A stretch of 64,000 nucleotides of DNA from Prochlorococcus marinus subsp. marinus str. CCMP1375 (GCF_000007925.1 NC_005042.1:1550001-1614000); one strand, 5' to 3'. Positions 48,748 to 63,059 are shown, counted from the first letter of the stretch. The notes: generated by a model not told the origin, from the letters alone. Translations and numbers: made by a program.

Positions 48748-50307
48748 TTGAACTTAACTATTCTCAGAACAAAAACTGCTTTAGAAGATTGGTGTAGGCA
48801 AAAACACAATCATGAAATTAATTTTGTCCCAACTATGGGAGGTCTACATCAAGGCCATCAAGAATTAATCAAAACAGCGCGATCTTTTTGCAAAAGAAAA
48901 CACTCATCGCAAGTATTAGTAAGCATCTTTATAAATCCACTTCAATTTGACCTTGAAGAAGATTTTAAGAAATATCCTAGAACTTTCGAAAATGATTGCA
49001 AAATAGCCTATGAGGCAGGCGCAAATGCGATTTGGGCTCCTTCATTTGAAAGTGTATTCCCCAATGGGGAAGAGGCTCATTTCAAAATCCAAGTCCCTTT
49101 TTCACTAAACAAATATTTATGTGGGGCTTCCCGGGAAGGACATTTCGATGGTGTTGCAACAGTAGTAGTCAGACTATTAGCTCTAGTGCGTCCTAATCGT
49201 ATTTTTCTCGGTGAAAAAGATTGGCAGCAATTAGTTATTTTGCGTCAGTTAATTAATGATCTTGGCTTACCAGTCTTAATTCACTCAATCCCCACAAAAA
49301 GAGATCAAGATGGTCTTCCATGCAGTTCGCGAAACGTTAACCTTTCAAAAGAAGAAAGAAAGAAAGTTGTAGCTTTACCTGCCGTACTTCAACAAGCAGC
49401 TCAGGCATTTCAAGAGAATAAGCCTATTAATCTAAATAATATGAAGACAACGTTAGAAGAGCATGATCTCAAAGTTGAATATCTAGAAACTGTAGATTTA
49501 AAAAATCTCAATCCAGTCAATCACGATGAAAGCAAGCTTTGCTTGCTTGCTGCAGCTGTCCACTGCGGCAATACTCGCTTGATAGATCACGGCTTTTTAA
49601 TGAAAAGAAATCCAATTGTTGCTATAGATGGACCTGCTGGAGCAGGAAAAAGCACTGTCACCAAAAAGTTCGCCCAAAAACTTGGTCTCATTTACCTTGA
49701 TACAGGGGCAATGTATAGAGCTGTTACTTGGCTAATTCAAGAAAACAATATCGATCCTCAAAATTCCAGTGAACTAGAATTAATTTTAAATGATATCAAT
49801 CTAGATATTTGTTTATCAAATACAGGAAATCAACAGGTTTTAATAAATGGTAAAGATATCACTACTTTAATTCGTTCGCCTACAGTAACTTCTCAGGTGT
49901 CTTTGGTCGCTGCCATAGGTTCAGTACGAGAAAAACTTACCAGTCAACAAAAAGAATTAGGATCAAAGGGTGGACTAGTGGCTGAAGGTAGAGATATTGG
50001 TACAGCAGTCTTCCCAGATGCTGAGCTAAAGATTTTCCTCACCGCTACTGCCCAAGAAAGAGCAAAACGAAGAGCTATCGATTTAAAAAAGCAAGGTTTT
50101 TCTACTCCTAGTCTTTCAGAGCTTGAAAAACAAATTAAAGAAAGAGATAGACTTGATAGTTCACGAGAAATAGCTCCTTTATCAAAAGCCAAAGATGCAC
50201 AAGAATTAATTACTGATGGAATGAATATAGAGGAAGTAGTAGAATTATTAATTAATATATTTAGAGAGAAAATTCCACAAGAGGTTTGGCCCACTAATGC
50301 TACTTAA
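48748..50307 (+). CDS. panC-cmk: Bifunctional pantothenate synthetase/cytidylate kinase
   Basis: 519-residue fusion found in cyanobacteria. PanC (about 1-285) shows INFVPTMGGLHQGHQELI, GEKDWQQL and PCSSRNVNLS, and makes pantothenate from beta-alanine and pantoate. Cmk (about 289-519) has VAIDGPAGAGKSTVTKKFAQ (P-loop 295-302), LDTGAMYRAVTWLI and GRDIGTAVFPDAELKIFLTA, and phosphorylates CMP/dCMP. The start is TTG 48748: an in-frame stop lies three codons upstream and no ATG precedes the PanC nucleotide-binding motif. The 3' end overlaps the phosphatase gene by 8 nt. Confidence 0.95.
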   Translation: MNLTILRTKTALEDWCRQKHNHEINFVPTMGGLHQGHQELIKTARSFCKRKHSSQVLVSIFINPLQFDLEEDFKKYPRTFENDCKIAYEAGANAIWAPSFESVFPNGEEAHFKIQVPFSLNKYLCGASREGHFDGVATVVVRLLALVRPNRIFLGEKDWQQLVILRQLINDLGLPVLIHSIPTKRDQDGLPCSSRNVNLSKEERKKVVALPAVLQQAAQAFQENKPINLNNMKTTLEEHDLKVEYLETVDLKNLNPVNHDESKLCLLAAAVHCGNTRLIDHGFLMKRNPIVAIDGPAGAGKSTVTKKFAQKLGLIYLDTGAMYRAVTWLIQENNIDPQNSSELELILNDINLDICLSNTGNQQVLINGKDITTLIRSPTVTSQVSLVAAIGSVREKLTSQQKELGSKGGLVAEGRDIGTAVFPDAELKIFLTATAQERAKRRAIDLKKQGFSTPSLSELEKQIKERDRLDSSREIAPLSKAKDAQELITDGMNIEEVVELLINIFREKIPQEVWPTNAT

Positions 50308-53832: not shown

Positions 53833-55257
53833 ATGGTTCATTATGAGAAGCTCTCTCCACCAACCACAGGAGAAAAAATTAAATTCAATAATGGATTGCC
53901 TATAGTGCCCGCAAATCCCATCATTCCTTATATAAGAGGAGATGGAACAGGGGTAGACATCTGGCCCGCAACACAAAAGGTAATTGATCAAGCCATAGAA
54001 AAAGCCTATGGGATTGATAGAAAAATAGAATGGTTCAAAATATATGCAGGCGATGAAGCTTGTGATTTATATGGCACTTACCAATATCTACCTAAGGACA
54101 CCATAGAGGCAATTCGAGAGTATGGAGTGGCAATTAAAGGGCCCTTAACAACACCAATTGGGGGAGGCATTAGATCTTTAAATGTTGCTCTTAGGCAAAA
54201 ATTTGATCTATATAGTTGTGTACGACCATGCCGTTATTATCAAGGTACACCAAGTCCTCATAAACATCCTGAAAACCTAGATGTAATTGTTTATCGCGAG
54301 AATACTGAAGATATATATATTGGTATTGAATGGGAGTCAAATGATCCAATTGGCATAAAGCTTATAGAGCATCTAAACAATGATGTAATTCCTGCTAGTC
54401 CGTCTCTTAAAAATCGAATTATTCCTCAAGGATCAGGTATTGGAATCAAGCCCGTTAGTAAAGATGGTAGCCAACGACATATTCGAAGAGCTATACAACA
54501 TGCTTTGAAACTGAATGGCAATAAACGTCATGTAACGCTAGTACATAAAGGAAATATTATGAAATTTACTGAAGGCTCATTTCGAGATTGGGGATATGAA
54601 TTAGCAACTAATGAATTTCGTAATGAATGTATAACTGAAAGGGAAAGCTGGATACTTTCCAATCTAGAGCAAAATCCTAGATTAAGTATTGAAAATAATG
54701 CAAAGTTGATTGACCCTGGTTATGAATCATTAACAAAAGAAAAAAAAGATATTATTTGCAATGAGGTTCAACTTGTAATTAATAATATTCATAAAACACA
54801 TGGAAATAACAAATGGAAAAAAATGGTTTTAGTTGACGATAGGATTGCAGACAGTATATTCCAACAAATACAAACCAGACCTCAAGAATATTCCATATTA
54901 GCAACATTAAATTTGAATGGGGACTACATATCAGATGCCGCTGCTGCAATTGTTGGAGGATTAGGAATGGCTCCCGGTGCAAATATTGGTGATCGAGCTG
55001 CGATTTTTGAAGCCACACATGGCACTGCTCCAAAGCATGCTGGACTCGATAGAATTAATCCAGGTTCAGTGATTTTAAGCGGCGTAATGATGCTGGAATA
55101 TATAGGTTGGCAAGAAGCTGCTGACTTAATTACAAAAGGTTTGAGTCAATCAATTTACGATAAACAAGTCACTTATGACCTTGCCAGGTTAATGGAACCT
55201 CCTCAATCTCCATTAAGTTGTAGTGAATTTGCAAATGCGGTAATTGAACGATTCTAA
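53833..55257 (+). CDS. icd: Isocitrate dehydrogenase, NADP-dependent
   Basis: 474-residue enzyme making 2-oxoglutarate, the nitrogen-assimilation carbon skeleton. It shows IIPYIRGDGTGVDIWPATQK, SLNVALRQKFDLYSCVRPCR, VIVYRENTEDIYIGIEWESN, KGNIMKFTEGSFRDWGYELA and the C-terminal FEATHGTAPKHAGLDRINPG. A cyanobacterial insertion of some 45 residues lies near 250-320 (ITERESWILSNLEQNPRL). No GTAN8TAC NtcA box is seen in the 160 nt before the start. It converges on the DUF1537 gene. Confidence 0.97.
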   Translation: MVHYEKLSPPTTGEKIKFNNGLPIVPANPIIPYIRGDGTGVDIWPATQKVIDQAIEKAYGIDRKIEWFKIYAGDEACDLYGTYQYLPKDTIEAIREYGVAIKGPLTTPIGGGIRSLNVALRQKFDLYSCVRPCRYYQGTPSPHKHPENLDVIVYRENTEDIYIGIEWESNDPIGIKLIEHLNNDVIPASPSLKNRIIPQGSGIGIKPVSKDGSQRHIRRAIQHALKLNGNKRHVTLVHKGNIMKFTEGSFRDWGYELATNEFRNECITERESWILSNLEQNPRLSIENNAKLIDPGYESLTKEKKDIICNEVQLVINNIHKTHGNNKWKKMVLVDDRIADSIFQQIQTRPQEYSILATLNLNGDYISDAAAAIVGGLGMAPGANIGDRAAIFEATHGTAPKHAGLDRINPGSVILSGVMMLEYIGWQEAADLITKGLSQSIYDKQVTYDLARLMEPPQSPLSCSEFANAVIERF

Positions 55258-55277: not shown

Positions 55278-56636
55278 TTACTGATTCTCCATAATCTTCC
55301 AAACATTTAAAAGACTTTTCTGATCACCTAAGTTGCCAGGAAAAGTAATAATCGGTAATCGTACTTTATATGGTTCATCAGGGCATACAACAGATACTCC
55401 TGGTACAACTTGTCCTTTTAAATTAACAGATTTCAAATTCAAGCCTTTCTCAAGAAGTGTATGCGTAGTAATTCCGCCTTTACTTATTACATAACCCAAC
55501 TTATTCGAAATTTTAGAAACTAAGCGACTAATTAATTCTGAAAGAGCAATTCCGAAATTTATTCTTTCTAAATTAGATTCCAATAAGAGCTCTCCTCTAC
55601 TAGTATATAAAACTGGGGTTTTACCTCTTTTCATTATATTAGTCAATTGTTTAAACCAAATATTCTCCAAATCAGGAAGTAAAGTATCTCGCAAGGATCC
55701 ACTTAAAATTCTAGAGATTTTTTTTACAGGCAACTGAACTCCATCAAAACATTTCTCTGCTAATAAAACTTCTAATTGATCATCTGCTAGTTTCACATGA
55801 GAGCCAATGACGACTAAACCAGGCCGAGGGGTGCCAGATTCATCTTTTAATCTTAAAGAAGAAAAATCTTTAATACTATTAGAGTCAGAAGTGATTCCAG
55901 ATAAAGCATTAATTAAACTTGCTGCAGAGCGGAAAAGAAAATTTTTTTTATAATGCAAATCTTTAATTGCATATGCAAATGAAGATAAATCAGCTGAAGT
56001 TTCTGCATCTACAATAACAGAATCATTTCCTGAAAATTTAGATAATGAATTAATGAAATTCTTCATTTCTATTTTGTTATTATTTGCTCGTTTTAATTTT
56101 TCGAGTGAAATAGATTTAACATCTTTAGAATTTATTTTACCTTTGCTTTTATCTTCTAACCAAAAAGCTAAGTTACTTGTCTTATATCCAAAAATCTTAT
56201 CTTTAGCAAAAATTGTTTTGTGAACAGGGATTCCATTTAAAAGATGAATCCCATTAAGAGTAGTTCTGCCACCTTCAATAAATGCTGGTACATGAAAAGT
56301 TGCATCGAAAGGGCCAAGTTCTTCATGTATGACTTTTGGTTCTAAATATCCATGCCCTCTTAACGTTGAGTCTCCCCTACTTATAAAAAAAATATCTTTA
56401 TATCTTAAAGCATTCTCTTTGATTACCTGTTTAAGCACTTTGCAAATCTCTCTGAGTCTTTCCTCTGCCATCTCAGGAGATAACGATCTCGTATTAGTTA
56501 ATAAAAAAAGCAATGGCGAAGAATCTTGAAGACCTTTTCTCACCATTTCTTTATCCCAACGAAGCAATAAAGGACATCCGTAAACAGTCTGCGAGCCAGT
56601 GGGATCATCGTCAAACACAACAATCTTAATCATCAA
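55278..56636 (-). CDS. Four-carbon sugar-acid kinase family protein (DUF1537)
   Basis: 452 residues of the DUF1537/OtnK-type family that phosphorylates aldonic or four-carbon acids. The N-terminal nucleotide motif is FDDDPTGSQTVYGCPLLLRW; SRGDSTLRGHGYLEPKVIHE and the C-terminal KGGITTHTLLEKGLNLKS and FPGNLGDQKSLLNVWKIM complete it. Lys/Asn/Ile-rich composition suggests a higher AT content than the neighbours. It lies 34 nt downstream of the FMN hydroxy-acid oxidase gene, probably in one operon with it. Substrate is unknown. Confidence 0.82.
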   Translation of the reverse strand: MMIKIVVFDDDPTGSQTVYGCPLLLRWDKEMVRKGLQDSSPLLFLLTNTRSLSPEMAEERLREICKVLKQVIKENALRYKDIFFISRGDSTLRGHGYLEPKVIHEELGPFDATFHVPAFIEGGRTTLNGIHLLNGIPVHKTIFAKDKIFGYKTSNLAFWLEDKSKGKINSKDVKSISLEKLKRANNNKIEMKNFINSLSKFSGNDSVIVDAETSADLSSFAYAIKDLHYKKNFLFRSAASLINALSGITSDSNSIKDFSSLRLKDESGTPRPGLVVIGSHVKLADDQLEVLLAEKCFDGVQLPVKKISRILSGSLRDTLLPDLENIWFKQLTNIMKRGKTPVLYTSRGELLLESNLERINFGIALSELISRLVSKISNKLGYVISKGGITTHTLLEKGLNLKSVNLKGQVVPGVSVVCPDEPYKVRLPIITFPGNLGDQKSLLNVWKIMENQ

Positions 56637-56670
56637 ACTATAAGCTCGCTCTCAATGAGGCAAAGCCAAT

Positions 56671-57843
56671 CTATTTCCAACTTTCAGGAATAGTTATAAA
56701 AGAATTATTTAAACTTTTTACTGAATCGCACCCTAATAATTTCATCGTACGTAAAACATCAGTTTTAATAATTTCAATTGCCCTCGCAACACCTGGCCCG
56801 CCAGCAGCGGCTAACCCATAAGCATATGCCCTACCAATCAACACTCCCTTAGCTCCAAGACATAAGGCTTTAATAACATCGCCCCCACGTCTAATACCTC
56901 CATCTAACAAAACATCTATTTTCCCATTTACAGCTTTTACAACCTCAGGTAAAACACGAATAGTGGGAGCAACGCTATCTAATTGGCGTGCTCCATGATT
57001 AGATACAACAATTGCATCAACGCCTAAAGCAAGGGCCTTACGAGCATCATCTCCAATATGAACACCTTTAACAACAATCTTGCCACCCCAAGCTTCTCTA
57101 ATCCATTTGAGATCTTCCCAAGTCACAACGGATGCCTCTAAGGCAGGGCCAATTTCGGTATAGCCCATGGGCCCATCTTCAAGTTCAACATTTGGAAAGC
57201 TCATTAAGCCACCATCCCCCAACCACTGAGTCATCCAGCAGGGTTTAACAACCATTTGAGAAAGATAAGGAAGCATTTTGATTGGATTTCTAGAAAGCAA
57301 CTCTTTAGTCCCATTAAGCAAATCACGTTCTCTTAATCCTGAAACAGGGGTATCAATCGTCACAACTATTGCGGAAAAGCCTGCCAACTTCGCTCGCTGA
57401 ATTGTTTTCAAGGCGACATCACGGCCACCAAGCAAATACAACTGATACCACGCAGGAGAGTTAGTTGCTTCCTTCACATCTTCTAATCTGCAACCAGACA
57501 AAGTGGATAGTGTATAACCTGTTCCTGCCTTCCCTGCTTCTCTAGCTGCTACAACTTCTCCTTTTGGGTAAAACAAACGACTGCTACCTACCGGCGCAAG
57601 CATAAAGGGAAGCTGAAACTCTTGATCAAGAACTGAAGTAGTTAAATTGCAAGTTGGTGTTGCAACAGCACATCTTGGACGAAAAAATATTTCATTAAAT
57701 GCTGCGCAATTTTGAGATAAGGTTTGCTCTCTATCAGCACCACTATCTATATAGTCAAAAACCATTCTAGGAAGCCTTTTCTCCGCCAATAAGCGTAGAT
57801 CGCTAATATTTACAACTGCCGGTGATGAAACATTAGCGCCCAT
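56671..57843 (-). CDS. lldD: FMN-dependent alpha-hydroxy-acid oxidase/L-lactate dehydrogenase
   Basis: 390-residue flavoenzyme of the glycolate oxidase/LldD group. Visible: LPRMVFDYIDSGADREQTLS, FRPRCAVATPTCNL, the active-site SNHGARQLDSVAPTIRVLPE (catalytic His) and FMN-binding LLDGGIRRGGDVIKALCLGA. Its substrate could be L-lactate, glycolate or a similar 2-hydroxy acid; adjacency to a D-lactate dehydrogenase favours L-lactate (inference). It lies 117 nt downstream of dld on the same strand. Confidence 0.85.
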   Translation of the reverse strand: MGANVSSPAVVNISDLRLLAEKRLPRMVFDYIDSGADREQTLSQNCAAFNEIFFRPRCAVATPTCNLTTSVLDQEFQLPFMLAPVGSSRLFYPKGEVVAAREAGKAGTGYTLSTLSGCRLEDVKEATNSPAWYQLYLLGGRDVALKTIQRAKLAGFSAIVVTIDTPVSGLRERDLLNGTKELLSRNPIKMLPYLSQMVVKPCWMTQWLGDGGLMSFPNVELEDGPMGYTEIGPALEASVVTWEDLKWIREAWGGKIVVKGVHIGDDARKALALGVDAIVVSNHGARQLDSVAPTIRVLPEVVKAVNGKIDVLLDGGIRRGGDVIKALCLGAKGVLIGRAYAYGLAAAGGPGVARAIEIIKTDVLRTMKLLGCDSVKSLNNSFITIPESWK

Positions 57844-57960
57844 ATCAAAAGCTATGATGTATAAAAAATATTCTAAGATATAACGTGGCAGTAAAGAAAA
57901 AGAAATCGATTAAGTGAATAATTTGAGTAATAAGTGTAATTACTACAATTTTTATTCAAC

Positions 57961-59661
57961 TTATTGGTAATTTTTTCTCTTAGACATTTTGCCTATACCT
58001 GAGTTAAAAGTATTAGTAGGATCAAGTTCTCTATAAAAAACTTCTAATGATTTTTCAGCCTTATATAAATGACCAACATTATGTTCGGCAGGATATTTTG
58101 CATTTATTGAATCCAAGAATTTCAGTATTTTTTCTTTTAATAATTTTGAATCGACTCCTTTTTTAACGACAAAATCTAAGTGGAATACCATGCAAAGAAA
58201 ATGCGCCATCTCAAATGAATCTGACATTTCATTAAGAATATCCTGAGGTAATAATTGATCCCAATCTTTAAAGTTACGTGGAAATGCAATATCTAAAGGT
58301 AGTAGATCTCCTGCTAAGTCCGGATTAAGTATTTTATATCTAGCAGGAGCTGCTCCTGCAACATATCTATGCAATAATGCATCTTTGCCTTCACTCTCTG
58401 TACATTCTATATATTCAAAATCTTCACTTTTTTCTGTTTCAATATCTAATAATAGTTTCATTTCTTCAATAGAGTTATTACTAGCCAAGAGCAACATATA
58501 ATAATTAAATTTCTTGCGGAAAGATAGTAGCCTTATTGGCAGGTGGTTAGGAAGAATATCTGCTATAAATTGCATCAATCTATCTGAAATATTTTCTGGT
58601 AGAAAAGTTACTTGTCCTGTTAACTGATCTATATATCGTTTGGCTTCTAAAAGTTTAGGTAAATACTTAGTTCCAAAATATTTTAGAAACAAAAAAGTGT
58701 CTTTACAATACTTAGCAGATCCATCAAAGTAACTAAAGTGCATATATTCTCCCATGTCAGGCAAAGAATTCATATTTGTCAATATTTTCTCTCTTAAATG
58801 CGTCAAATGTTCGGCATTATTTGTACCAACAAAGAAAACTTTTTCTCTTTCAGGAAGTGGAAAAGTGTCAAGTCTTACAGCAAAAACAGCGATTTTTCCT
58901 GCACATCCACTTGATTCAAACAGGCGTCTTGAATCTGAATTAAATCTAGCTGGTGAACTGGCATTAATATCTCTTACACGAAATTGGTATTCCTTATCAG
59001 ATGCTAAAGATTCTGTATCAGGAACGTTCTGAATATTAAAATTAATAGCCTGTAAATTTGTAAAAATTGATCTGGGAGATTTACCTAGATTTATGCCTAA
59101 ATGATTCACTAATTCTAACTTTCCTAACTCATTTAATCTTGCATAAAGCGAAAGCTCGGTATAAGCAGGTCCTCGATTAACCAAATTTCCTCCTGAATTA
59201 TTGCATACTCCACCAATAACTGATGCGCCAATGCAGGAGGATCCAATTACTGAATGCGGTCCTCGACGAAATGGCAATAATTTTTCTTCTAGATCATATA
59301 AAGTAGTACCTGGCAATGCGATTACTTGAGAAGCAGAATTAATTAAAATTAATTGTTTAATATGAAGACAGTTTATTATAACTATCTCTCGATCATAATT
59401 ATTTCCATCTGGTGTGGAACCTCCTGTTAAACCAGTATTAGCAGCTTGCATAATAATAATTTTTTCATGCCGAATACATTCTTCCAAAACCTGCCAAAGT
59501 TGAAATAAATCATTAGGGAAAACAACCATAGCAACAACTCCGCCTCCAACTCTTATCCCAGTGCTATAAAATAGGGTTTTATTCTTATCAAGTAAAATAT
59601 TTTTTCTGCCAGCAATAGAAATTATTTTACTATTAAAATCTGATTGAGAAGTATTATTCAT
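57961..59661 (-). CDS. dld: FAD-dependent D-lactate dehydrogenase, Dld type
   Basis: 566-residue membrane-associated respiratory D-lactate dehydrogenase resembling E. coli Dld closely over its length. Shared features: VMQAANTGLTGGSTPDGN-type FAD loop (here IIMQAANTGLTGGSTP), HSVIGSSCIGASVIGGVCNN, RLFESSGCAGKIAVFAVRLD, and the C-terminal FHLDFVVKKGVDSKLLKEKI then YPAEHNVGHLYKAEKSLE. Dld enzymes reduce quinone. Such proteins are unusual in cyanobacteria, and the strong proteobacterial likeness suggests lateral gain. The gene stands 122 nt downstream of the galM-like gene. Confidence 0.9.
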   Translation of the reverse strand: MNNTSQSDFNSKIISIAGRKNILLDKNKTLFYSTGIRVGGGVVAMVVFPNDLFQLWQVLEECIRHEKIIIMQAANTGLTGGSTPDGNNYDREIVIINCLHIKQLILINSASQVIALPGTTLYDLEEKLLPFRRGPHSVIGSSCIGASVIGGVCNNSGGNLVNRGPAYTELSLYARLNELGKLELVNHLGINLGKSPRSIFTNLQAINFNIQNVPDTESLASDKEYQFRVRDINASSPARFNSDSRRLFESSGCAGKIAVFAVRLDTFPLPEREKVFFVGTNNAEHLTHLREKILTNMNSLPDMGEYMHFSYFDGSAKYCKDTFLFLKYFGTKYLPKLLEAKRYIDQLTGQVTFLPENISDRLMQFIADILPNHLPIRLLSFRKKFNYYMLLLASNNSIEEMKLLLDIETEKSEDFEYIECTESEGKDALLHRYVAGAAPARYKILNPDLAGDLLPLDIAFPRNFKDWDQLLPQDILNEMSDSFEMAHFLCMVFHLDFVVKKGVDSKLLKEKILKFLDSINAKYPAEHNVGHLYKAEKSLEVFYRELDPTNTFNSGIGKMSKRKNYQ

Positions 59662-59783: not shown

Positions 59784-60641
59784 TTATTGTGAAACTAAAA
59801 AAGTGCAAATCAATTCTTTATATTCTCTTGGATTAAGAAATAATGTTTGTTCACCACTATTTAAAGAGTTTCTTGGACTAGTCCAGGGTTCCAGGCAAAC
59901 CATATTTCTAGGTGGATCAGTCCAAACAACTACATTATTAAAAGGGTAAAGATATTTCATTTCTATAGTTGTCCCTGTTAATAAATCTTTTAAGTAAAAA
60001 GGTCCTTTTCCATTGCTAAGAAAATCAACTCCTTCTGATAGTTTTTCTATTTGTTTAGATGTCAGAGATTCTTCTTTTTGCAGATGATTAAAACAAATAT
60101 CAGGCAATCCTGCTATCGATACTTCTGTCAAATCTGTTACTTTAAAATAAGGGTGGATACCAAAACTAAAGGGCATATTCTCTTCACCTCGGTTATGAAC
60201 AATACTCTTGATTTCCAAAGTATTTTTAGAAGGCCTTACCTCAATCGCAAGTGAAAAAAAATATGGATATGACGCAATGGTTTGTGGAGAATCATTCATG
60301 GTCAAGGAAAAGCCTTTGTGATCATTCAGCAAATTAATTTCCCAAATTGCATCTCTAGCAAAGCCATGTTGATTAAGCGAAAACTCACCCTGAGGCAACC
60401 GCAAAATACTTCTAGGCAAATCCCCACAAATAGGAAATAAAATGGGCATACCTCCTCTTACACTCTTAACTGTTTGTTGAAAACGATCTAGATCAAAATA
60501 TAAAACTTCCCTTCCATTGGAAAGCCATTCTGTGATCAAGCCTCCTCTTTCAGGGACTATTCTTAAGCGGCATTGATTGTTCTCATCAGAGTATTCCCAA
60601 TGAGAATAAGGCTCATTTCTTTCTGTTAATTGTACAGACAT
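59784..60641 (-). CDS. Aldose-1-epimerase family protein
   Basis: 285 residues of the GalM/YeaD superfamily. It has RLRIVPERGGLITEWLSNGR, RGGMPILFPICGDLP, FSLNQHGFARDAIWEINLLN with the catalytic His, FSFGIHPYFKV (second His) and VWTDPPRNMVCLEPWTSPRN. The last two match hexose-6-phosphate mutarotases. Probably equilibrates anomers of a sugar or sugar phosphate. It is 16 nt downstream of the hydrolase gene. Confidence 0.82.
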   Translation of the reverse strand: MSVQLTERNEPYSHWEYSDENNQCRLRIVPERGGLITEWLSNGREVLYFDLDRFQQTVKSVRGGMPILFPICGDLPRSILRLPQGEFSLNQHGFARDAIWEINLLNDHKGFSLTMNDSPQTIASYPYFFSLAIEVRPSKNTLEIKSIVHNRGEENMPFSFGIHPYFKVTDLTEVSIAGLPDICFNHLQKEESLTSKQIEKLSEGVDFLSNGKGPFYLKDLLTGTTIEMKYLYPFNNVVVWTDPPRNMVCLEPWTSPRNSLNSGEQTLFLNPREYKELICTFLVSQ

Positions 60642-61685: not shown

Positions 61686-63059
61686 TCAAAGCAAACCTAC
61701 AGGATCCGCAGCAATATCATCAGGTATTGCATTCCCTCCTCCAGGCTTTTTATCTTTAAGAACAATTCTAAGTAGCACAGGAGCAAGAAAAGTTGTTCCT
61801 ATAACCATCAAAAGAATTGCAGCTTCTAAGGAAGGTGTAAGTAATCCTGCACTAGTACCAAGACCTAGAAAAATCAATCCCACTTCGCCTCGAGGCATCA
61901 TTCCTAAACCAACAACTAATCTATTAGTTGGCTTATCAATTACAAAAGACCAACCAGCTGCAATCTTTCCAATAATTGCAACTATCAAAAGGAATCCTGC
62001 AACAATCAAAGCTGAGCGACTCGCTGGGTCTAAAGGGTTGATTACCGAGAGATCCATTCCAGCACCAACTAAAACAAAGAAAATTGTTGCGAATAAAGAT
62101 ACGAGAGGTAGAACAGATTGCTGAATTGCATGATTATTTTTTGAGCTACTCAGAATCAAGCCAGCAGCAAATGCACCCAAAGCAGCTTCAAGACCAATTG
62201 CTGTAGCTACAAAACAACTAAGAACCAAAATCACAAAAGAAGCTACTACTACCGCTCCTGGAGCCTTAAGCCTATCTAACAACCAATCAAAAGCTGGCGC
62301 TGCAGTTCTGCTTAAGCCAATGGGTGCTATTACAAAAACTGTTGCTGCAACAACAAGTTTCACAATTGGGGCAATTTCTAATGAACCACCTGTTGCCAAA
62401 GCTACTACAACCGCAAGAATAACAATTCCAAGAATGTCATCAAGAACAGCTGCTCCAATAACTATCTGTCCTTCACGAGTCTTTAGATAGCCAAGCTCTC
62501 CAAAAACACTTGCTGTTATACCAATACTTGTAGCTGTCATAGAAGCACCAGCAAATATTGCAGGTATTAAATCGACATGAAAAATAAACATCAATCCCAA
62601 TGTTCCAAATGCAAACGGCAATATCACACCTGCCATAGCAACAGTGAAGGCTTGGGTGCCAACTGCAACAAGCTCTTCTAATTCACTTTCTAAACCTGTT
62701 AGAAATAGCAATGCATATAGACCCAGAGTCGCAACAGCTTGCAAAGAGGGAAAAGTCTCAAAATACAAATCTGGCACTGCTTCTTTAGGTATCGAGGCAA
62801 GAGAACTAATTATATTGATCAAACCATTATTTAAAGAAGCATGAGCACTTGGTGGTATCAGCAAATGCAGGCCAGAAGCACCTATTAAGACACCTGCCAA
62901 AAGCTCTCCAACAATTGTTGGCAAACTCAATCTGACTAAGATCTCAGCCAATGTTCTTGCTGCAACAAATATCAAAAGAAATCTAATTACACCGATTAAT
63001 GTTTCTGCAACCTCTATATCGTGAGTGCTCAGAACAGAAATTACTGGTGAAAACAACAT
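61686..63059 (-). CDS. CPA2-family cation/proton antiporter
   Basis: 457-residue membrane protein with about 12-13 helices, of the NapA/Kef type. Visible: LVRLSLPTIVGELLAGVLIG at the start, the helix pair GASMTATSIGITASVFGELG, AAVLDDILGIVILAVVVALA with the paired Asp residues of the ion site, and a C-terminal IIGKIAAGWSFVIDKPTNRL. No RCK or TrkA-N domain follows. Likely Na+/H+ exchange at the plasma membrane, relevant to marine sodium. It diverges from glgP. Confidence 0.88.
   Translation of the reverse strand: MLFSPVISVLSTHDIEVAETLIGVIRFLLIFVAARTLAEILVRLSLPTIVGELLAGVLIGASGLHLLIPPSAHASLNNGLINIISSLASIPKEAVPDLYFETFPSLQAVATLGLYALLFLTGLESELEELVAVGTQAFTVAMAGVILPFAFGTLGLMFIFHVDLIPAIFAGASMTATSIGITASVFGELGYLKTREGQIVIGAAVLDDILGIVILAVVVALATGGSLEIAPIVKLVVAATVFVIAPIGLSRTAAPAFDWLLDRLKAPGAVVVASFVILVLSCFVATAIGLEAALGAFAAGLILSSSKNNHAIQQSVLPLVSLFATIFFVLVGAGMDLSVINPLDPASRSALIVAGFLLIVAIIGKIAAGWSFVIDKPTNRLVVGLGMMPRGEVGLIFLGLGTSAGLLTPSLEAAILLMVIGTTFLAPVLLRIVLKDKKPGGGNAIPDDIAADPVGLL

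Follow-up and report, generated by a model that had tools for sequence, protein, structure and literature searches.

Exclusion between an LldD-type flavoprotein and GlcDEF beside a DUF1537-family kinase in the icd–galM slot of picocyanobacteria

Glycolate dehydrogenase, GlcDEF, of Escherichia coli and its cyanobacterial counterparts carries out flavin-linked oxidation of a small 2-hydroxy acid with three subunits and Fe-S clusters. In relatives of Prochlorococcus marinus SS120, glc genes occupy the same slot, and flank the same kinase, as the genes described here, and no lldD genome of the 79-genome panel described below has GlcDEF. E. coli LldD and Pseudomonas aeruginosa LldA, which are linked to quinone, share with the LldD-like enzyme of SS120 (here LldD) the FMN_dh family, the catalytic residues, a long loop 4, and a lactate-like pocket; however, SS120 LldD is about 39–42% identical to them, and its gene comes without lldP or lldR and is tied instead to dld and a DUF1537 kinase. 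Nostoc LOX and plant GOX, which belong with SS120 LldD to the FMN_dh superfamily, each accept glycolate as well as L-lactate, but are soluble oxidases having a short loop 4 and pocket residues that differ from those of SS120 LldD. The monotopic membrane (S)-mandelate dehydrogenase (PDB 6bfg) is similar to SS120 LldD in loop 4, by alignment, and in predicted fold. E. coli Dld (quinone-linked; PDB 1f0x) is matched by SS120 Dld over the full length, in both domains, and above the equivalog cut-off, but picocyanobacterial Dld forms its own clade and in some genomes is relocated to other loci. D-threonate and 3-oxo-tetronate kinases (PDB 4xfm/4xgj) share both Pfam domains and the fold with the slot kinase, which differs from them in having no linked isomerase, decarboxylase, or PdxA2 in the slot.

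Genes of both kinds, lldD-like and dld-like, are annotated in Cyanorak as L- and D-lactate dehydrogenases (PMC9361551). According to a published model, only some LLIV Prochlorococcus recover photorespiratory 2-phosphoglycolate, glycolate being excreted by the remaining ecotypes (PMC8782455). Each enzyme by itself is known; for the displacement of one set by the other there is no prior description that we could find, a search of the open-access literature having yielded no account of in-place replacement or of exclusion between lldD and glcDEF.

Genes of the locus in SS120

We analyzed a window of 64,000 nucleotides from the genome that carries the dld-lldD-kinase locus (SS120; 1,751,080 bp, single contig). 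The relevant features, in window coordinates, are:

53833-55257, plus strand: icd, NADP isocitrate dehydrogenase, slot boundary (NCBIfam PRK07362, 971 bits)
55278-56636, minus strand: DUF1537-family kinase, SBD_N + NBD_C (Pfam)
56671-57843, minus strand: lldD-like FMN alpha-hydroxy-acid dehydrogenase (Pfam FMN_dh, 410 bits)
57961-59661, minus strand: dld, FAD respiratory D-lactate dehydrogenase of E. coli Dld type (PRK11183)
59784-60641, minus strand: galM-like aldose 1-epimerase family gene, slot boundary (Pfam Aldose_epim)

The three open reading frames between the slot boundaries lie in one direction (minus strand), separated by gaps of 34 bp (kinase/lldD) and 117 bp (lldD/dld) with no further gene in between, and their products match Pfam, NCBIfam, and PDB entries for a DUF1537 kinase, an FMN alpha-hydroxy-acid enzyme, and Dld far beyond chance; the arrangement and the gene families given in an earlier note on this DNA are thereby borne out. 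GC contents (kinase 0.324, lldD 0.422, dld 0.320, window 0.381) mark no foreign block of the kind for which that note had proposed a comparison with neighboring genes: relative to the mean of the window, lldD is higher and dld is lower. Elsewhere in the window, a single long open reading frame at 48748-50307 reads, from its translation, as a pantothenate synthetase-cytidylate kinase fusion, a fusion common in cyanobacteria. A Na+/H+ antiporter-like gene at 61686-63059, unlike its neighbors, is 88–96% identical within Prochlorococcus and ~71–79% identical to Synechococcus, with a ratio of Prochlorococcus-Synechococcus to Prochlorococcus-Prochlorococcus distance of 3.2, vs. ~1 for icd, kinase, and lldD.

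SS120 Dld scores 817.5 bits against the PRK11183 equivalog (cut-off 391; residues 3–566, full-length), 383.8 bits against the membrane-binding domain PF09330 (full domain), and E=1e-179 against PDB 1f0x. It is 48–51% identical to gammaproteobacterial Dld (best plasmid-borne proteobacterial match, 50.5%), is without a counterpart in those genomes of the class that were sampled beyond the picocyanobacteria, and falls with its relatives into one picocyanobacterial clade in the Dld tree; the earlier suggestion that it is nearer to proteobacterial than to cyanobacterial enzymes thus holds.

LldD has the FMN_dh fold and the catalytic Tyr/Lys/His/Arg set: Y31, K259, H283, and R286 align with those of GOX and LOX and are invariant in 15/15 carriers. 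It scores below both NCBIfam LldD cut-offs (NF033901, 278.5 vs. 550; PRK11197, 314.7 vs. 376). The nearest relatives outside picocyanobacteria are only about 44% identical (best plasmid-borne proteobacterial match, 43.7%), FMN_dh proteins of other cyanobacteria are about 36–43% identical (about 41–43% over the matched part for the cyanobacteria sampled outside the picocyanobacteria), and the lldD tree that includes outside relatives has long branches. In the alignment, loop 4 is long, a trait shared with E. coli LldD and with mandelate dehydrogenase, and the predicted structure, which has a good core and a loop 4 below pLDDT 50, gives its best query-normalised TM-score among the listed solved structures, 0.85, with 6bfg. 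Relative to SS120, identity among carriers is 78–91% for LldD vs. 76–85% for Icd, and about 45–65% for kinase, galM, and Dld. Conservation of LldD on a par with Icd, while kinase, galM, and Dld drift, points to a function that is probably under strong selection.

The kinase has the DUF1537 fold (Foldseek) and both SBD_N and NBD_C, which place it in the superfamily, and represents a divergent subfamily with the motif DDDPTGSQ and other conserved motifs; its scores fall far below the NCBIfam cut-offs for D-threonate and 3-oxo-tetronate kinase (67.9 vs. 450; 24.8 vs. 350). Present in 273 of 300 family genomes, it is a picocyanobacterial core gene. In two genomes the kinase gene contains one in-frame TGA (G004, L017; G012, L018), and in a third it is in two pieces (G054, L286); these interruptions could reflect errors in assembling partial genomes, or gene decay. 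We considered the kinase as a missing glycerate kinase and dropped this candidate, since a class III glycerate kinase has been reported from Prochlorococcus (PMC2063504).

Slot states and exclusion between lldD and glcDEF

Gene order in the slot was read in about 55 genomes, and icd and the galM-like gene are the slot boundaries in nearly all genomes compared. The states are as follows (arrowheads give orientation):

State A (Synechococcus and several early Prochlorococcus-like genera): icd> glcF> <kinase glcE> <galM
State B (low-light Prochlorococcus, including SS120): icd> <kinase <lldD (<dld) <galM
State B' (marine Synechococcus G270, G276, and G282): icd> dld> lldD> <kinase <galM
State C (high-light Prochlorococcus and G037): icd> <kinase, with neither lldD nor glcEF

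The kinase occupies the same icd-galM slot in all states seen. In state A, the opposite-strand genes that flank it have their best scores as GlcE and GlcF, and glcD is located elsewhere, outside the slot. In state B, the new genes occupy the place of glcE; in state B', they occupy the place and have the orientation of glcF, on the other side of the kinase. The high-light genomes include those that we take to be MED4 (G159), MIT9312 (G126), and MIT9301 (G105). A published report of glcDEF in two Synechococcus strains and of the absence of glcE and glcF from MIT9312 (PMC9723591) agrees with states A and C. Synechococcus G294 has the order icd> dld> <kinase and is without lldD and without glcDEF. 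Synechococcus G294 and G226 carry a further FMN_dh gene that is more divergent (about 42–46% identity; L222:4711-5964 and L223:4383-5636); in G294 it could be a third substitute.

Because the kinase is a core gene and resides in the slot in every state, the three genes are not one inserted block, and a single foreign three-gene block is ruled out. The earlier proposal of an insertion therefore stands for lldD and dld, which replace something (glcE, glcF), and falls for the kinase, an ancestral resident of the slot. Nor do all Prochlorococcus carry the same three genes in this place, the outcome that the earlier note had named as refuting its reading: high-light strains keep the kinase only. 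Across 300 family genomes, the lldD-like gene is found in about 60, at 79–91% identity, and dld in about 37, and several lineages, for example g56 and g4, have lldD without dld. Dld is mobile: in some genomes its gene has a different location, with purK and a carbamoyltransferase gene close by (G005/G010) or near lexA/argF (g39), and lldD and kinase stay in the slot. These relocated copies group together with 99% SH-aLRT, suggesting transfer of dld between lineages. Coordinates of relocated copies are L096:9002-10702, L098:9542-11242, L100:9282-11006, and L102:9738-11438.

In the 79-genome panel, which is phylogenetically clustered and was chosen after the lldD result was known, 39 genomes have lldD only, 28 have glcF only, 12 have neither, and 0 have both. 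None of the 39 lldD genomes has GlcF or full-length GlcD; GlcF and full-length GlcD occur in the very same 28 genomes, and lldD is found in 0/28. A genome search of SS120 returned no GlcF match and no full-length GlcD. Exclusion between lldD and glcD/glcF has a Fisher p of 4e-12, a value that ignores relatedness and comes from a panel picked after the lldD search. The results establish the gene identities, the gene order, and the mutual exclusion. G129 has a Dld gene (L112:8760-10460) and glcDEF in the same genome, with dld elsewhere; dld is thus not strictly tied to loss of glcDEF.

In a tree built from icd, Na+/H+ antiporter, hydrolase, and kinase, the Synechococcus lldD carriers are nested in a genus whose remaining members keep glcEF, and the high-light strains are nested within the lldD group. 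We conclude from these placements that there were at least two independent switches, followed by secondary loss among the high-light strains. The tree positions of G043 and G062 hint at additional switches within Prochlorococcus, although one common Prochlorococcus group is not rejected (p-AU 0.37). Counting supported branches alone, the two traits differ together in no more than two independent pairs, each time in opposite directions. Since there are only two such pairs and a single Prochlorococcus switch is not rejected, the exclusion is a strong pattern with few independent events. When transfer of lldD between the genera was examined, the distance ratio defined above was 1.04 for lldD vs. 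1.06 for icd.

Substrates and reaction direction

In enzymes of this superfamily, glycolate specificity is associated with T/W/V, and lactate specificity with M/L/F, at three positions (PMC7020209). The pocket of SS120 LldD has V85, L115, and, by alignment, Leu. The resulting V/L/(L) lacks the T/W/V signature of GOX, is not exactly M/L/F, and is closest to V/V/L of E. coli LldD. As main substrate of LldD, pocket residues favor L-lactate, and gene context favors glycolate.

Alternatively, Dld and LldD might serve only to clear internal lactate, oxidizing the D- and L-lactate of methylglyoxal detoxification and side reactions, in which case the GlcDEF that they replaced in picocyanobacteria would have been mainly a D-lactate dehydrogenase and glycolate would be uninvolved. 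The wide margin by which Dld passes the D-lactate dehydrogenase model, the lack of an LldP-type permease, and a rise in lactate with glucose in these cells (PMC10100731) fit this proposal as the lactate-like pocket does. However, lldD was exchanged for glcDEF, not added to it; g56, g4, and other lineages carry lldD without dld; and high-light strains manage with none of lldD, dld, and glcDEF. We consider the proposal unlikely.

Use of dissolved D- and L-lactate from sea water was the function put forward in the earlier note, as mixotrophy with lactate or sugar acids, and the two enzyme families do cover both lactate enantiomers. A search for Lactate_perm (PF02652; LldP/GlcA) that was positive in E. 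coli and B. subtilis found no such gene in 42 picocyanobacteria, that is, in SS120 or 41 relatives, and the locus has the character of an in-place enzyme replacement, one that alternates with glycolate dehydrogenase, not of a catabolic operon with regulator and permease like E. coli lldPRD. Mixotrophy on lactate or sugar acids is thus not supported, and we regard it as improbable.

The same genes have been read as serving lactic fermentation, with pyruvate reduced to lactate and NAD+ regenerated in the dark or on glucose (PMC2565063, PMC10100731, PMC9361551), and in SS120 both the dld transcript and an 'L-lactate dehydrogenase' protein do increase with glucose (PMC2565063, PMC10100731). The published SS120 dld primers (PMC2565063), however, match the Dld open reading frame exactly, at 58874-58892 and 58794-58812, and so report on a FAD respiratory enzyme; the second enzyme is of FMN type; and neither family is NAD-linked, members of both donating to quinone or oxygen. 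SS120 has no match to PF00056, the family of NAD-linked L-lactate and malate dehydrogenases, for which 13/14 control genomes were positive (this search covers the L-type; NAD-linked D-lactate dehydrogenase belongs to the 2-hydroxyacid dehydrogenase family, which overlaps with SerA). The absence of an LldP-type permease and of NAD-linked L-lactate dehydrogenase argues against mixotrophy and fermentation alike, and we judge fermentation very improbable. The increases with glucose are compatible with use of internal hydroxy acids.

A link to vitamin B6 would have the kinase and a flavin dehydrogenase carry out the initial steps that are missing from DXP-dependent PLP synthesis, phosphorylation of erythronate and oxidation of 4-phosphoerythronate. 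Cyanobacteria lack Epd, PdxB, and PdxR, GlcDF-like proteins have been suggested as stand-ins for PdxB in Desulfovibrio, and DUF1537 kinases are able to supply the pathway (PMC9997740); the kinase, moreover, is near-universal in picocyanobacteria. Against this, LldD enzymes act on short L-2-hydroxy acids, and high-light strains have the kinase with neither glcEF nor lldD, so that the oxidase cannot be essential for B6. We find this link scarcely credible.

Proposed replacement of GlcDEF

According to the explanation that we favor, LldD, with Dld, probably replaced GlcDEF in the flavin-linked oxidation of small 2-hydroxy acids; the locus comparison suggests an exchange of enzymes, not a gain of lactate feeding or of lactic fermentation. 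The icd-galM slot would be a locus for hydroxy-acid oxidation with a DUF1537 kinase as its constant element. In Synechococcus and early Prochlorococcus-like lineages, glcE and glcF of the FAD/Fe-S enzyme GlcDEF flank this kinase; in low-light Prochlorococcus and, separately, in one marine Synechococcus group, glcDEF is missing, and the gene for an FMN LldD-type enzyme, usually together with that for a FAD Dld-type enzyme, lies next to the same kinase. LldD (and Dld for the D-isomer) would most likely convert small 2-hydroxy acids (glycolate from photorespiration, L- and D-lactate made inside the cell, or both) to 2-oxo acids and would pass the electrons to the membrane quinone pool, so that two single-subunit, iron-free flavoproteins would take over the job of an Fe-S complex. 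That glycolate is a main substrate is a possibility we hold at somewhat less than even confidence.

Several points count against replacement of GlcDEF by LldD and Dld: the apparently lactate-leaning pocket, the co-occurrence of glcDEF and dld in G129, and the presence of dld without lldD or glcDEF in G294. In addition, a GlcD2-like FAD oxidase is present in all lineages (our search; also PMC9723591) and might oxidize glycolate.

A saving of iron is a plausible advantage of the proposed swap, given the Fe-S clusters of GlcF (Fer4 and CCG domains), the reported exchange of Fe-S proteins for iron-free substitutes in low-iron Synechococcus and Prochlorococcus (PMC10545762), the naming of CRD1 Synechococcus among lactate dehydrogenase carriers (PMC10100731), and the induction at low iron of LldA, an alternative enzyme of P. 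aeruginosa (PMC11389411). We advance tentatively the more specific proposal that the independent replacements in low-light Prochlorococcus and one Synechococcus group installed, under selection by iron scarcity, an FMN glycolate dehydrogenase that descends from LldD, contains no iron, is associated with the membrane, and differs from GlcDEF as well as from plant-type GOX as a photorespiratory enzyme.

The locus comparison suggests that low-light lineages keep hydroxy-acid oxidation by means of a substitute enzyme and that high-light lineages lost it, a picture that differs both from the model in PMC8782455 and from the lactic-fermentation reading of the same genes. If true, it would affect the view of which picocyanobacteria supply SAR11 and other heterotrophs with glycolate, and of the influence of iron scarcity on central metabolism.
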